39,632 bases of DNA from contig CALIBQ010000073.1 of NCBI GenBank assembly GCA_938049385.1, forward strand, positions 1 through 39,632, written 5' to 3'. The stretch comes from an uncultured Anaerolineae bacterium (lineage in GTDB: Bacteria; Chloroflexota; Anaerolineae; JACIWP01). The notes under the pieces were generated by a model, which was given only the letters and a program-made list of their open reading frames with translations, did not search any database and was not told the origin of the DNA. Made by a program: the position numbers and the translations under genes. The first letter of the stretch is position 1, and each line of letters begins with the position of its first letter. Of this stretch, positions 48 through 5,909 are shown one piece after another.

Positions 48-76
48 TTGACAAGCCATCCGAATGCATGTATTGT
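48..76 (+). promoter_or_regulatory. Sigma70-type promoter of the membrane EEP gene
   Basis: A perfect -35 box TTGACA lies at 48-53. After a 17-base spacer comes a -10-like TATTGT at 71-76 (4 of 6 matches to consensus). It sits 46 bases before the ATG at 122, which supports that start over the longer reading frame that runs through the promoter. Function is inferred from sequence only. Confidence 0.6.
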
Positions 77-121: not shown

Positions 122-2101
122 ATGTTCCCCAACGTCCCTAACGCGAACGCCATGTCCCTGGCAGAGGAACTGCCCGATTGGGAACGCACCGCCCGCGTCC
201 TCCAGCCGATGGCCGCCACCCTCTTTTTCCTCAGCAGTCTGCGCCTCTTTGTCGCCCAGTTATCCGTTCGGGTTTTCCCCAGCCTGGGACTGCCGGCGGC
301 GGTGCTGATCGGTCTGCTGGCGGTATCCACCCCTCTCATCGCGATGGTTCTGCGCCGGCGGTGTTCCCATCCCTGGGTCATCTCCGCCCTGCCGGCGGCC
401 ATGGCCGCGGCGCGGCTGGCCGGCCAGATTGCCCCGCCCCCAGATGTCCAATGGGTGTGCGCCGCGCTGACCATCGCCCTATTTGGAGTGTATCTCCCCA
501 TGTATGCCGGCTGGCTCGCCTCGCGCGAGCGGCGCGGCATTTACGCGCTGACATGGGGGATGTTGGCCGCCATCCCGCTGGACATCTGCCTGCGGGCCAT
601 CCTCTCTTCGGCAGACCCCTTCTTCGCCAGCGGCGCTCTGCCGGCGGTGCTGGTTATCCTGCTGGCCGGCGTCATGTTCAGCAGAACGCTGACCTGGCCG
701 CGCCGCACGGTGCGCGAACCCCTGACCCCCCTGCCCCAGGGCGGGTGGGCAGATGGCATACTGCTGGCCGGCCTAGGGCTGGTGATGTTCCTGGGCTATG
801 CCCTGTTTTTCAACGCTTCCCTCGCCGGCCCGCTGGCCAACGCCCCGTATCCCGCCGCCGTGGTTACCGCAGTGGCGATCGCCGGCCTGGTCGGAAGCGC
901 CTTGTATTATGACGCCGATTCCGTCCAACTGCTCGACCAGAACCCCCTGTTCACTGCTATCCTGGCGAACCTGGGCCTGATCGCCAGTACCGCCCTGCTG
1001 GTGCTGAACCGCCCATCGCACTGGAACCTGCCGCTGATGGCCGTCGGGCTGGGCCTGTTGATGGTGGACCTGGTCCTGTTCGGCCGTCTGCTGGTCAGTT
1101 CCAGGGGCCACCCAGTGATCATCGCCGGCCTGGGTTGGTGGCTGGGCCTGCTGTTGATGCTCGTCTGTCTGGTGCCGCTCCTGCGCTATCAGGATGAGCG
1201 AGTGCTGATCACCGGCGCAGTGGTGGCAGGTGTTTGCGGGATCGCCGCCGGCGTCCGCCTGCAGAGCCGGCGCTGTCCCATGCGGGTGGTGCGCGCCGCC
1301 TCATGGGTATGGGTAGCGGCAGTGGTACTGCTCGTGGTCACGGCCGGCGCGCTGTTCATCCAGCCGGCCGGCGCCCACCCGGAACCCCGGCAGGAAGTGA
1401 CCCTGATGACCTACAACATCCGGAGCGGCTTTGGGGCGGATGACCGGTTTGATCTGCGGCGCACAGCTCGCACGATCATCGAGGCGGACGCGGATATCAT
1501 TGCCCTGCAGGAGGTGAACCGCGGCTCTGGCTTGAACGGCTTCACCGACGGCTTGATGGTCTTAATGGACATCCTGCGGCCGGCCGGCTACCGCTACTGG
1601 GAGTTCGGACCGGCGGCGAACTTCACATACGGCAATGCTATTATCTCCCGTTATCCGATCGTGGCCGGCGAAAATTTCCCCTATGTGACGGTGGTGCTGG
1701 AGCGCCGCTCCTGCCTGGCGACGCGGGTCAAGATTGGCGGCCGGCGGCTGGCCGTCTACAGCACCCATCTGACCCACGTGGGACATTCTACCCCCGAGCG
1801 GCTTCGACAGGTGCAGGAACTGCTTGCAGTGGTTCAGCCGGAGGGACTGCCGAAGGCGGTGATGGGTGATTTCAACGCCGCCCCAGAGACGGCGGAAATC
1901 TCCGCCTTGCTGGAACATTTCGCAGATGCCTATGCCGCTGCCGGCTCACCACCCGGCTACACCTTTCCTGCGCTGAACCCGACCAAGCGCATTGATTACA
2001 TCTTCATATCGCCAGAATTGACCCCTCTGGATGCGCAGGTGCTGGACAGCGCGGCCTCTGACCACCGTCCGGTGGTGGTGAGGGTGCGCTTGGCGCCGTG
2101 A
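122..2101 (+). CDS. Multi-pass membrane protein with C-terminal endonuclease/exonuclease/phosphatase domain
   Basis: The first ~400 residues are a chain of hydrophobic segments, about ten or more candidate membrane spans. The last ~230 residues are a complete endonuclease/exonuclease/phosphatase (EEP) domain. Its metal and phosphate motifs are visible: TYNIR with Asn432, LQEV with Glu464, STHLTH, MGDFNA with Asp583 and Asn585, and SDHRPV with Asp647 and His648. Family members cleave phosphodiesters in DNA, RNA, lipids or small molecules, so the substrate cannot be named. The domain follows the last span, and with an outward orientation would act at the cell surface, as in some membrane-bound EEP phosphodiesterases. 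The ATG at 122 has the Shine-Dalgarno GGAGGC six bases upstream and follows a promoter. A frame extension to the TTG at 8 is unlikely. It overlaps the next gene by four bases (GTGA), so the two are probably co-translated. Confidence 0.85.
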   Translation: MFPNVPNANAMSLAEELPDWERTARVLQPMAATLFFLSSLRLFVAQLSVRVFPSLGLPAAVLIGLLAVSTPLIAMVLRRRCSHPWVISALPAAMAAARLAGQIAPPPDVQWVCAALTIALFGVYLPMYAGWLASRERRGIYALTWGMLAAIPLDICLRAILSSADPFFASGALPAVLVILLAGVMFSRTLTWPRRTVREPLTPLPQGGWADGILLAGLGLVMFLGYALFFNASLAGPLANAPYPAAVVTAVAIAGLVGSALYYDADSVQLLDQNPLFTAILANLGLIASTALLVLNRPSHWNLPLMAVGLGLLMVDLVLFGRLLVSSRGHPVIIAGLGWWLGLLLMLVCLVPLLRYQDERVLITGAVVAGVCGIAAGVRLQSRRCPMRVVRAASWVWVAAVVLLVVTAGALFIQPAGAHPEPRQEVTLMTYNIRSGFGADDRFDLRRTARTIIEADADIIALQEVNRGSGLNGFTDGLMVLMDILRPAGYRYWEFGPAANFTYGNAIISRYPIVAGENFPYVTVVLERRSCLATRVKIGGRRLAVYSTHLTHVGHSTPERLRQVQELLAVVQPEGLPKAVMGDFNAAPETAEISALLEHFADAYAAAGSPPGYTFPALNPTKRIDYIFISPELTPLDAQVLDSAASDHRPVVVRVRLAP

Positions 2102-3147
2102 AGATATGGGATGATGCTGGGATGAAGCGGCCCACGACTGCACTGGAACGCAACCGCCTGCTCGCCGGCGTGTGGGCCGGCCGGCCTCCCACCTGGGGAC
2201 GAATCCTTCTTTTCATCCTGTCGCTGGAAGTCGTCCTGCTGGTGGTCGGAGGCATGCTCAGCGTGCCCATCACCGCGGTGTTGATGGTGCCCGCCCTGCA
2301 AGGCGGGCAGTTCCAGCTCACCGAGGAATTTGTCTTCCAGATGCTGGATATGATGAACCGCAGTATCCCCGGTCTGCTGGTGAATCTCCTCCAGTTTGTG
2401 CTGATGGCGGGCTGGACGTTCCTTTGGGTGTGGGTAGTGGACGGCCGGCCGCCCGCGACCTTAGGCCTCCAGACCCAGCGTCCCCTTCGGCAGTGGGCGC
2501 GGGGCATGCTGGTCGGTGCCGGCCTGCTGGTCCTCTCCCTCGCACTCATTCCTGTGCGCGGTGCGCTGAACGTTCTGGCAGTGACGCCGGAGGGGATTGG
2601 AAAGACCATCTTCTGGCTGAGCATCACCCTGCTGTTTTTCCTGGTGCAGGGGCCGGCGGAGGAGCTGGTGGCGCGCGGGTACCTGCTCCAAGTGTTCAGC
2701 GCACGGGCCGGCAACGCGGCCGGCGTGCTCCTCTCCTCCCTGGTGTTTGCCCTCCAGCACGCCCTCAATCCCAATCTCACCCCGCTAGCGCTCGCCAACC
2801 TATTCCTGTACGCCGTTTTTGCCGCGCTGTATGCTCTGCGCGAGGAGTCCCTTTGGGGGGTGTTCGGCCTGCATTCGGCTTGGAACTGGGTGCAGGGGAA
2901 TATCATGGGACTGCCGGTCAGCGGGGCTGGATTCGGACAGGCACCGCTGTTGCACCTGCAAACCGCCGGCCCTAGTTGGTGGACGGGCGGCGCGTTTGGC
3001 CCAGAGGGCGGGCTGACGGTAACCCTCAGTACCCTACTGGGCATCATCGTCTTGCTGGTTCTGATGCGGCGGCGTGCGCCGGCCGTTTCATCTCGCTCCA
3101 TTTCTGCGGAAGGTGGAAACCCAGGGGATTCGGATGTGGAACCGTAA
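2098..3147 (+). CDS. CPBP-family intramembrane metalloprotease
   Basis: A 349-residue multi-span protein with the three CPBP (Abi/CAAX-protease-like) motifs in order: Glu188-Glu189 with Arg193 (EELVAR), His221 in FALQH, and His259 with Asn263 in HSAWN. These residues hold the catalytic zinc or act in catalysis in Rce1-type proteases. Family members cleave within or near the membrane, but natural bacterial substrates are mostly unknown. About eight hydrophobic stretches are visible. The GTG at 2098 overlaps the preceding stop codon (GTGA). The ATG at 2122 is an alternative that shortens the product by eight residues, and neither has a strong ribosome site. The 3' end overlaps the following kinase-like gene by 14 bases, so three membrane proteins appear to form one unit. 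The protease may act on a component of the neighbouring sensor, but nothing in the sequence proves this. Confidence 0.85.
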   Translation: MKIWDDAGMKRPTTALERNRLLAGVWAGRPPTWGRILLFILSLEVVLLVVGGMLSVPITAVLMVPALQGGQFQLTEEFVFQMLDMMNRSIPGLLVNLLQFVLMAGWTFLWVWVVDGRPPATLGLQTQRPLRQWARGMLVGAGLLVLSLALIPVRGALNVLAVTPEGIGKTIFWLSITLLFFLVQGPAEELVARGYLLQVFSARAGNAAGVLLSSLVFALQHALNPNLTPLALANLFLYAVFAALYALREESLWGVFGLHSAWNWVQGNIMGLPVSGAGFGQAPLLHLQTAGPSWWTGGAFGPEGGLTVTLSTLLGIIVLLVLMRRRAPAVSSRSISAEGGNPGDSDVEP

Positions 3148-4900
3148 GCGCTTCGTCCTCTCGTTCGTGCTGGTGGCGCTGGTAGCACTGCTGGCGTACG
3201 GCGGGATCGTCTATGTCGCAACGATGACCGCCACAGAGGAAGTCGGGCAGGAGCTGGCGGCTACACAGTGGCAGACCCTTCAACGCGTCATCGGGCAGTT
3301 GACCATCGAGCTATTACCCGCCGCAAAGGAAGCCGCCGGCCGGCCGGGCCTGCAGAACATTATGTCTGGTTCCATGCCGGCTGACTGGGACAAGCTAGAG
3401 GATGAGCTGTCCGTCTCCCTGGAAAGCGCCTTTGGTGTGCGCGTTTGGGCACTGCTCGACCCGCAGGGGCGGTGGATCGCCGGCGCAGGCCTCGACCAGG
3501 AAGCATTGGGCGAGGTACCGGCCTGGCGCATCTTCCAGTCGGCGCAGGAAGGAAAAGAAGGTGCCGGCTTGTACGCGTTGGCCGGCTCGCCGTCGGCAGT
3601 AGCTGTCGCCCCAGTACAGCAAGACGGCACGGGAGAAATCGCCGGCTTCGTCATGGTAGCCAGACCGCTGGACCGCTCCTTTATGGAGCGCATCAAGGCC
3701 TACCTGGGACGTGAGGTGTTCCTGTTCGGCGATGGCAAGTTCCTGGCCGGCAGTCGGCCGCTGAGCGCACAGGAGGAAGCAGTCCGGTTAGGGTATATCC
3801 AGCGCGCCAACCGGCGGCCGGCCTCGTATCTGCCGGCGGTGGACCATCTTCCACATAACCTGATCGTCGCGACCGGGGAGCTGTGGGATGTGGAGAACCG
3901 CCAGATCGGGTATTTGCAGATCGAGATACCTAACCCCGTCGGCTCCACCATCCGCACGGCGGTGACGCTGGCCTCGCTGGTGGCCATCCTGCTGGGGCTG
4001 GCGGCATCGTTCATCCTGGCGCAGGCCATCGGAAGCCGGCTGGCGGAGTCAGCGGAACTGCTGGCAACACGCGAGCGGGAGAACGCCCGGCTTTATGCGG
4101 AAGTACAGCAGTTGAATCGTCGGCTGGAGAAACTGCTCAGCGAGCGCACCACTCAGCTCCGCGCTGCCATGAGCGAGCTTCAGGAGGCGCGCGAACAGCT
4201 TATCCAGGCGAACCGCCTGGCATCCCTGGGATCGCTGACTGCTGGCCTGGTGCAGGGGCTGAGCACTGCAGTCGCGACCATTTCCAGCGTAGTGCATGGT
4301 TTGCTGGCCGTGGAGCAGGATGAGGAACACCGCCGGCAGTTGGAGGAAATCCGCGAATCCGTCCTGCACTGCCAGGCCCTGCTGGCGCGCACGCGGGCCT
4401 ATCTCCGCCCGGGGCGCGCTCCCCGGCGTGAGCTGACCGACCTCAATCAGTTGGTGCGCGAGTCCGTGGAGGCCACCCGCCATATCTATGAGCAGGCGGA
4501 GATTGCCCTCCATCTGGACCTGGACGAGCGCCTGCCGAGGGTGCTGGTGGACGCCGTGCAGATTCAGCAGGTGCTGTTCAACCTACTGCTCAACGCCGGC
4601 GAAGCCATGGAGCATGTCGAGCCACCGCGCCAGCTCACCATCCGAACTACCAGGACACAGGGCATCGCGCAGGTAGTAGTGGAGGACAGCGGGCCGGGGC
4701 TGAGCGCCGCCGATCTCAGCCATCTGTTCGAGCCGTTCTACACCACCAAGCCGGCGCATCAGGGCACCGGGTTAGGCCTGTACATTTCCCGGCAAATCGT
4801 GGAAGCTCACGGCGGGCGCATCAGCGGCGAGAACCGGTCGGACGGTCGCGGCGCGCGGTTTACGGTTGAACTGCCGGCGGGCATGCCGGCAAAGAGCTGA
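3134..4900 (+). CDS. Histidine-kinase-like membrane sensor with degenerate H-box
   Basis: A 588-residue protein: membrane span at about 7-28, an extracellular region of ~240 residues of sensor (Cache-like) size, a second span at about 272-300, a coiled coil at ~305-365, then a kinase core. The ATP-binding half looks intact: N-box NLLLNAGEAM near 482, DSGPGL near 519, FEPFYTTKP, and GTGLGL near 544. The H-box is recognisable (ASLGSLTAGLV), but the usual His-Glu is Gln374-Gly375, so the normal phospho-acceptor is missing. It may bind or hydrolyse ATP without autophosphorylating, phosphorylate another residue or protein, or act as a pseudokinase scaffold. The chosen ATG at 3134 has AGGGGA just upstream, while an earlier in-frame ATG at 3074 lies deep in the CPBP gene. 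No response regulator is adjacent. The gene converges with the next one, leaving seven bases between them. Confidence 0.85.
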   Translation: MWNRKRFVLSFVLVALVALLAYGGIVYVATMTATEEVGQELAATQWQTLQRVIGQLTIELLPAAKEAAGRPGLQNIMSGSMPADWDKLEDELSVSLESAFGVRVWALLDPQGRWIAGAGLDQEALGEVPAWRIFQSAQEGKEGAGLYALAGSPSAVAVAPVQQDGTGEIAGFVMVARPLDRSFMERIKAYLGREVFLFGDGKFLAGSRPLSAQEEAVRLGYIQRANRRPASYLPAVDHLPHNLIVATGELWDVENRQIGYLQIEIPNPVGSTIRTAVTLASLVAILLGLAASFILAQAIGSRLAESAELLATRERENARLYAEVQQLNRRLEKLLSERTTQLRAAMSELQEAREQLIQANRLASLGSLTAGLVQGLSTAVATISSVVHGLLAVEQDEEHRRQLEEIRESVLHCQALLARTRAYLRPGRAPRRELTDLNQLVRESVEATRHIYEQAEIALHLDLDERLPRVLVDAVQIQQVLFNLLLNAGEAMEHVEPPRQLTIRTTRTQGIAQVVVEDSGPGLSAADLSHLFEPFYTTKPAHQGTGLGLYISRQIVEAHGGRISGENRSDGRGARFTVELPAGMPAKS

Positions 4901-4907
4901 TGCTCGC

Positions 4908-5909
4908 TCAGCGCTGGCGCCGCCGGGTCAACAGCCACAGCAGTGCCAGCACGCCGGCCAGCGTGAGCCAAGGATGGTTGCTGACCCACAGCGCGGCGCG
5001 CAGGCCCCTGCGGAAGCGCTCCACCCCGCTGACATCCGGCACAGCCGGCAGTTGAGCATGCCAATCCAGCTCGGCCAGGCGGGGGAGATAGCCCTGCTGG
5101 ACGCATCCTTCCAGGCTGAAGATGTAAAGCTGGTGGCTCCAGCGGTGTGCCAGGAGCAGGTCCCGCTCCAGCTCCTCCCAGGAAAGGGACGCCTGGGAAG
5201 ACGGGCCGGCGATTTCCACCCCTCCCCCCGTGTTCCCAACCCCGATGGCCTGGGCATGGGGGCCGTAGCTCCAGAGGAAGGCCGCTCCGTTGGGACGCAG
5301 GAAGCTGGAATAGAGCATCAGCACCTCGGTATCCCCTTTCACATCCACCAGCCCGCCGAGGGCCCGGATTAGCCGCGAGCCGGCCATCCGCTCATCCACG
5401 ATCAGCGGCATATGGTATACCTCGACGCCCCAGCCATCGGCATGAATGCGCTCGATCAATCCCTGGTATACCGCTTCGGCATGCCAAATGCGCTCTGGGT
5501 TGAACAAGCGATCCCATACGTTCGGGAGCAAGGTGAGCCATCTGCCGGCGTACAGCGCCTGCATGTCGGCGATATGCGGCTCAATGTCCAGACCGATTTT
5601 TTGCCAGTGCAGGGAGTGTTCCTGCGTCCAGCAGCGGAAATCGTCATAAAACTGCACTGCCTCTGCGCTGTTGCCGGCATTGAACCAGTAGCCCTGCTCC
5701 TGGGGAAGCACCAGCCAGGCGGTAAGGGGAATGCCGGCCCGCTCAATGCGCTTGACCAGCGCGGCGCGCTCCGCGGACAGATCGCGTATCGCCAGGCTGA
5801 TGCCGGCGCCCAGCTTCTTCACCGCATCGAAGACCTGCGGGGTTTCGATCAATGCCTTCAGTTGGGGAGGGTCCAATTCACAGAAAAAAGTCAATGCCGG
5901 CGTACCCAT
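4908..5909 (-). CDS. Unrecognised protein, barrel-like with C-terminal membrane anchor
   Basis: I do not recognise this 333-residue protein with confidence. It has no signal peptide. The body alternates short hydrophobic strands and amphipathic helices in the manner of a TIM barrel. A strand ending in LDIEP (Asp108, Glu110) resembles the acidic strand ends of glycoside-hydrolase-like barrels, followed by further strands such as GVEVYHMPL. A single hydrophobic helix (WLTLAGVLALLWLL) near 311-328 is followed by Arg-Arg-Arg-Gln-Arg, a tail-anchor arrangement that would leave most of the protein on one face of the membrane. The ATG at 5909 is preceded by AAGGAGGATGCG, an excellent ribosome site. 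It is the last gene of the tgt-uppP-binding-protein run. A carbohydrate-active role is only a guess from the fold pattern. Confidence 0.75.
   Translation of the reverse strand: MGTPALTFFCELDPPQLKALIETPQVFDAVKKLGAGISLAIRDLSAERAALVKRIERAGIPLTAWLVLPQEQGYWFNAGNSAEAVQFYDDFRCWTQEHSLHWQKIGLDIEPHIADMQALYAGRWLTLLPNVWDRLFNPERIWHAEAVYQGLIERIHADGWGVEVYHMPLIVDERMAGSRLIRALGGLVDVKGDTEVLMLYSSFLRPNGAAFLWSYGPHAQAIGVGNTGGGVEIAGPSSQASLSWEELERDLLLAHRWSHQLYIFSLEGCVQQGYLPRLAELDWHAQLPAVPDVSGVERFRRGLRAALWVSNHPWLTLAGVLALLWLLTRRRQR

Follow-up and report, generated by a model that had tools for sequence, protein, structure and literature searches.

Gene Content and Organization of the Locus

The window, i.e., the whole analysed stretch of 39,632 nucleotides from an uncultured Anaerolineae bacterium, carries close to its 5' end a cluster of three genes on the forward strand, the last of which encodes a histidine-kinase-like sensor. 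The following features were assigned:

48..76, +: sigma-70-like promoter match TTGACA-17-TATTGT 5' of the cluster (weak: one match found versus 0.8 expected by chance)
122..2101, +: multi-TM protein with a C-terminal Exo_endo_phos (EEP) domain, first gene of the cluster (Pfam; order kept in the sister species)
2122..3147, +: CPBP/Rce1-like (Abi-domain) intramembrane protein, 341 aa (Pfam, residue alignment)
3134..4900, +: pseudo-histidine kinase gene, 588 aa (ORF, Pfam, structure model, orthologs with 85% identity in two sister species)
4241..4276, +: degenerate H-box AGLVQGLSTAVA, residues 370-381 (codon reading, FixL alignment)
4580..4609, +: N box NLLLNAGEAM, residues 483-492 (identical in three species)
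4682..4702, +: G1 box EDSGPGL, residues 517-523 (identical in three species)
4724..4750, +: F box LFEPFYTTK, residues 531-539 (identical in three species)
4763..4786, +: G2 box GTGLGLYI, residues 544-551 (identical in three species)

The gene order EEP-CPBP-pseudokinase is kept in all three species compared, i.e., the window species and two sister species of its genus. The pseudokinase gene starts with the ATG at 3134 and shares 14 nt (3134-3147) with the CPBP gene. Between the last nucleotide of the EEP gene (2101) and the CPBP start codon (ATG at 2122) lie 20 nt; with the GTG at 2098 as start codon instead, the two genes would overlap. An overlapping operon with genes of a protease and a phosphodiesterase-like protein had been proposed in the original prediction. 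The three-gene cluster and the CPBP/kinase overlap agree with this proposal, but the EEP and CPBP genes do not overlap if the latter is read from ATG 2122. The CPBP/Abi domain (PF02517) was detected with 59.2 bits (cut-off 22.4), and the putative catalytic residues E180, E181, R185, H213, H251, and N255 are present in this protein as well as in a relative from another family.

Searching the genome with the Pfam Response_reg model gave 56 receiver-domain matches, of which 54 exceeded the cut-off; none of the 56 lies on the contig of the window. The lack of a response regulator gene adjoining the kinase gene, as originally described, therefore applies to receiver domains on the entire contig. 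Directly downstream of the pseudokinase gene, a convergent gene (4908-5909, -) encodes a protein of 333 aa for which Pfam gave no match up to an E value of 0.1; the position of this gene is preserved in both sister species.

CPBP homologues occur widely in the class, namely in 40 out of 100 genomes. Among the other class genomes whose CPBP surroundings were examined, no kinase of this type was found beside the CPBP gene in the same operon, and within the reach of these data the pairing of a CPBP gene with a pseudokinase gene is thus specific to this genus. In two class genomes an ordinary REC-GAF-kinase is encoded near the CPBP gene; due to the NUDIX gene situated between them, these two cases of mere proximity were rejected as same-operon arrangements.

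Domain Architecture and Predicted Structure

The pseudokinase is composed of a first transmembrane segment, an extracytoplasmic CHASE4-like sensor domain, a second transmembrane segment, a coiled coil, a DHp domain without the acceptor histidine, and a HATPase_c domain. Pfam scores exceed the cut-offs for HATPase_c (85.5 versus 26.4 bits) and CHASE4 (33.8 versus 26.2 bits), whereas HisKA (PF00512) stays below its curated cut-off in the window protein (16.1 versus 26.9 bits) and across the three orthologs (14.2-18.5 bits). For the sensor half (residues 1-333), no relative was found elsewhere in the own genome, and of 396 genomes of the class only those of the sister species yielded one, apart from a single marginal match. 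Likewise, the search of these 396 genomes gave no relative of the full-length protein outside the genus, and a search of genome contigs for related loci returned only the known sister ortholog and distant kinases.

The AlphaFold2 model has a mean pLDDT of 70.9 and a pTM of 0.42. It predicts a DHp hairpin formed by helices 309-393 and 397-424. In the ATPase domain, the pLDDT of most blocks is 91-97; it drops to 79-86 for residues 531-550 and to 60-70 where DHp and CA join, and in the blocks around the H-box (361-380) it reaches only 54-67. Fold matches of the model include FixL, ZraS, HK853, the pseudokinase DivL (4q20), and the NifL-NifA complex (9qq6). The closest solved relatives are the FixL chimeras 8a7f, 8a3u, and 4gcz (E about 1e-28).

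Loss of the Acceptor Histidine

In a residue-by-residue match with the FixL structures 8a7f and 4gcz (E about 1e-28), Gln374 (codon 4253-4255) is placed opposite the acceptor histidine of 'ALAHELNQPLAAIS', and the adjoining acidic residue is replaced by Gly375 (codon 4256-4258). Both orthologs (85% identity), one of them annotated as 'Anaerolineae bacterium isolate RSWS7', keep the Gln-Gly pair, whereas residues 378-379 of the H-box differ between the species (TA in the window species, SP in the sisters). FixL alignment and ortholog conservation therefore agree with the original reading of an H-box in which Gln374 stands for His and Gly375 for Glu. An alignment of 44 relatives shows histidine at this column almost without exception. 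In a wider alignment of 184 kinase rows, 179 have a residue at the column, which is histidine in 169 of them. The ten exceptions consist of six repeated copies of the pseudokinase ortholog group, three orthologs of a second histidine-less kinase from the same genus as the window species, and one unrelated alphaproteobacterial sequence. Of the features of a HisKA-type sensor histidine kinase, the acceptor histidine, the adjacent acidic residue, a HisKA match above the cut-off, and a cognate response regulator encoded nearby are lacking, and the HATPase_c domain with its four boxes and the predicted DHp hairpin are present. Judged by its sequence, it is a membrane-bound pseudo-histidine kinase.

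Two further DHp histidines, His388 on helix 1 and His412 on helix 2, are conserved and were considered as alternative acceptors. This option was rejected, as both lie off the acceptor level of the hairpin, His388 being displaced by about 14 residues, which corresponds to some 21 A of helix, and His412 being located on the second helix. Kinases with the acceptor histidine in place can likewise carry histidine at these two columns. Neither of the two outcomes named in the original prediction as refuting it, homologues with the histidine retained or another histidine in the acceptor place, was thus obtained.

Proteins of this kind are already known, and glutamine is a recorded replacement. A survey reported the histidine to be missing from 0.9% of HisKA domains (722 of 76,471; PMC12632262), so that its absence here is not surprisingly rare; another source gives about 1%, with glutamine among the replacements (PMC5361649). 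In the chloroplast sensor kinase CSK, green algae have Gln or Tyr in place of the histidine and higher plants have Glu, and the histidine-less protein binds ATP, with no autophosphorylation seen (PMC5054060).

Several other atypical kinases were encountered. The second histidine-less kinase of the same genome (L125:3235-5277, +; contig C30, 31234-33276) comprises 681 aa with Response_reg, GAF, HisKA below the cut-off, HATPase_c, and an OmpR-type DNA-binding domain; its acceptor histidine is replaced by glycine (ASGIAGEINNALT). Its orthologs in both sister species are 97% identical, keep this glycine, and have the slowest-evolving ATPase domain among the kinases compared. The alphaproteobacterial sequence (L053; MAG: Alphaproteobacteria bacterium RGIG1672) is a kinase-like protein with glutamine for the acceptor histidine and the acidic residue kept (AISQELKNPL), and represents an independent His to Gln change. 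In another family, two genera have membrane kinases that look like orphans (L126:3334-4650, -, also represented by L026 and L132; and L217); these keep the histidine, and the next, normally acidic residue is glycine (AHGFASPV, AHGLASPI). The His-Gly kinases of two other genomes (L026/L132 and L217) had suggested a two-step origin, in which the acidic residue would have been lost first and the histidine afterwards. With 44 sequences, L132 was placed as the sister of the pseudokinase with a support of 0.953; with 162 sequences this placement disappeared, irrespective of whether the H-box columns were included.

Selection on the DHp and ATPase Domains

The comparison covers three species, two of which are close to each other. 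The sister orthologs are separated from the window gene by about 0.6 synonymous changes per site. The dN/dS ratio is 0.16 for the whole gene, 0.04-0.05 for the DHp domain, which belongs to the most constrained parts of the protein, and 0.17-0.18 for the ATPase domain. Those ordinary kinases of the three genomes that have orthologs span 0 to 0.15 for DHp and 0.03 to 0.26 for the ATPase domain, and the pseudokinase values fall within both ranges. The ATPase domain evolves faster than that of most control kinases, yet within their range, and with a larger set of control kinases the notion of a specially relaxed ATPase domain was abandoned.

Among the 148 residues of the ATPase domain, 26 vary between the three species, and none of these variable positions is situated within the motifs N, G1, F, and G2, which together comprise 34 residues (0 of 26; hypergeometric P = 5e-4). 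All four boxes are unchanged, and the earlier description of these motifs as intact was borne out. Judging from these motifs, the protein probably binds ATP or ADP; the weak ATP binding of the histidine-less DivL (PMC4211667) counts against this assumption.

A sequencing or assembly error, or a gene in decay, would offer a trivial explanation for the lost histidine. Identical Gln-Gly pairs occur in two separately assembled sister species despite the synonymous divergence, the full-length frame is open and under purifying selection like that of ordinary kinases, and the ATP motifs are free of variation. For these reasons the Gln-Gly pair is regarded as genuine, and error and decay, being extremely improbable, were ruled out.

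Comparison with Known Systems

Similar to the window protein, DivL of Caulobacter has a histidine kinase fold with a replaced acceptor (Tyr550), and autokinase activity is not expected. DivL is PAS-based, binds DivK~P, and controls CckA, whereas the window protein has a CHASE4 membrane sensor, is encoded beside a CPBP gene, and carries Gln followed by Gly. CSK of some green algae shares the glutamine at the acceptor position, but is a soluble plastid protein with an unrelated sensor and context. RocA of group A Streptococcus is a membrane-bound histidine-kinase-like protein that acts on CovS and is thought to signal through contact with this kinase. It keeps a dispensable DHp histidine (H246) and has a degenerate CA domain; in the window protein the situation is reversed, with intact CA motifs and the acceptor histidine gone.

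In case of NifL, the GHKL domain binds nucleotide without hydrolysis and the output is a protein contact, which may resemble the situation here, but NifL is a soluble PAS protein acting on NifA, and NifL of A. vinelandii retains the conserved histidine. RcsD resembles the window protein as a membrane protein with an inactive histidine kinase domain; its own HPt domain relays phosphate, whereas no HPt domain was found in the window pseudokinase. In the pairs Abx1-CovS and SpdC-WalK, a CPBP/Abi-domain membrane protein is functionally tied to a membrane histidine kinase, a tie that may exist in the present case as well. The kinases of these pairs are active and have a genetic tie to a response regulator, unlike the histidine-less protein studied here, which shares its operon with the CPBP gene.

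Candidate Mechanism and Alternative Explanations

Autophosphorylation at the usual site and phosphate donation to a response regulator would be lost in the window protein, whereas dimerisation via the DHp helices would be retained and ATP or ADP probably still be bound. A ligand at the extracytoplasmic CHASE4-like domain may then change the shape of the dimer, and this change would most likely be read out through protein contact. Characterised pseudo-histidine kinases signal by contact, namely DivL (PMC4211667), RocA (PMC7028121), and ChrS (PMC9491836). We tentatively favour the co-encoded CPBP protein as the contact partner (probability about 0.45), since Abi-domain proteins bind histidine kinases via membrane or signal-processing parts. 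Abx1 binds and regulates CovS (PMC3578759), and the CPBP-type protein SpdC does so with WalK (PMC5854430); the product of the overlapping upstream gene may likewise reach the pseudokinase through transmembrane contacts. The adjacency of both genes in three related genomes is in itself weak evidence for an interaction.

According to the original prediction, the sensor might control the protease. This direction is possible, but should not be taken as the default, because in the precedents it is the Abi protein that regulates the kinase, and Abx1 acts on CovS without need of protease activity or of its protease-like residues (PMC3578759). A three-gene membrane module in which the histidine-less, ATP-binding sensor directly controls the CPBP intramembrane protease without phosphotransfer is considered rather unlikely.

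The main rival to the CPBP protein as partner is an active histidine kinase encoded elsewhere in the genome, an option just as well known, with which the pseudokinase would form a complex or heterodimer and whose kinase/phosphatase state it would tune, the CPBP protein being accessory or unrelated. Precedents are given by RocA-CovS, DivL-CckA, and the truncated ChrS with HrrS (PMC7028121, PMC5361649, PMC9491836), the strong constraint on the DHp domain is in line with this explanation, and some thirty other kinase-like matches in the genome offer candidates. No active kinase gene adjoins the pseudokinase gene, however, and there is no obvious paralog as a partner, given the isolated sensor half described above. 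This explanation is less probable than the favoured one, though ahead of the remaining alternatives.

Considerably less credit is given to two explanations that assign a central role to the ATPase domain. On the one hand, this domain might still be catalytic, its target being either the histidine of a kinase with which the protein forms a heterodimer (phosphorylation in trans) or a different residue within the pseudokinase itself. Fully conserved ATP motifs in a domain that varies at other positions, as well as the conserved His388 and His412, are consistent with such activity; but the acidic residue is lost together with the acceptor (a partner would supply it in trans), and neither histidine is suitably placed or peculiar to proteins lacking the acceptor. 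On the other hand, binding of ATP or ADP by the GHKL domain might control the contact with a soluble target, e.g., a transcription factor. The GHKL domain of NifL indeed binds ATP/ADP and does not hydrolyse it, ADP stabilises the complex with NifA (PMC9866876), and the structure of this complex is among the fold matches. This second explanation is equally improbable, as no gene for a NifA-like or other regulator is present in the operon and NifL differs from the window protein in being soluble and PAS-based.

The number of bacterial pseudo-histidine kinases studied so far is small. The pseudokinase described here brings along a ready partner hypothesis in the form of a CPBP membrane protein co-encoded in three species. 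If the favoured contact with this protein holds true, a sensor with a kinase fold would be wired directly to a CPBP protein; if the protease is what is controlled, a kinase-fold sensor would have been turned into a protease regulator that operates without phosphotransfer.
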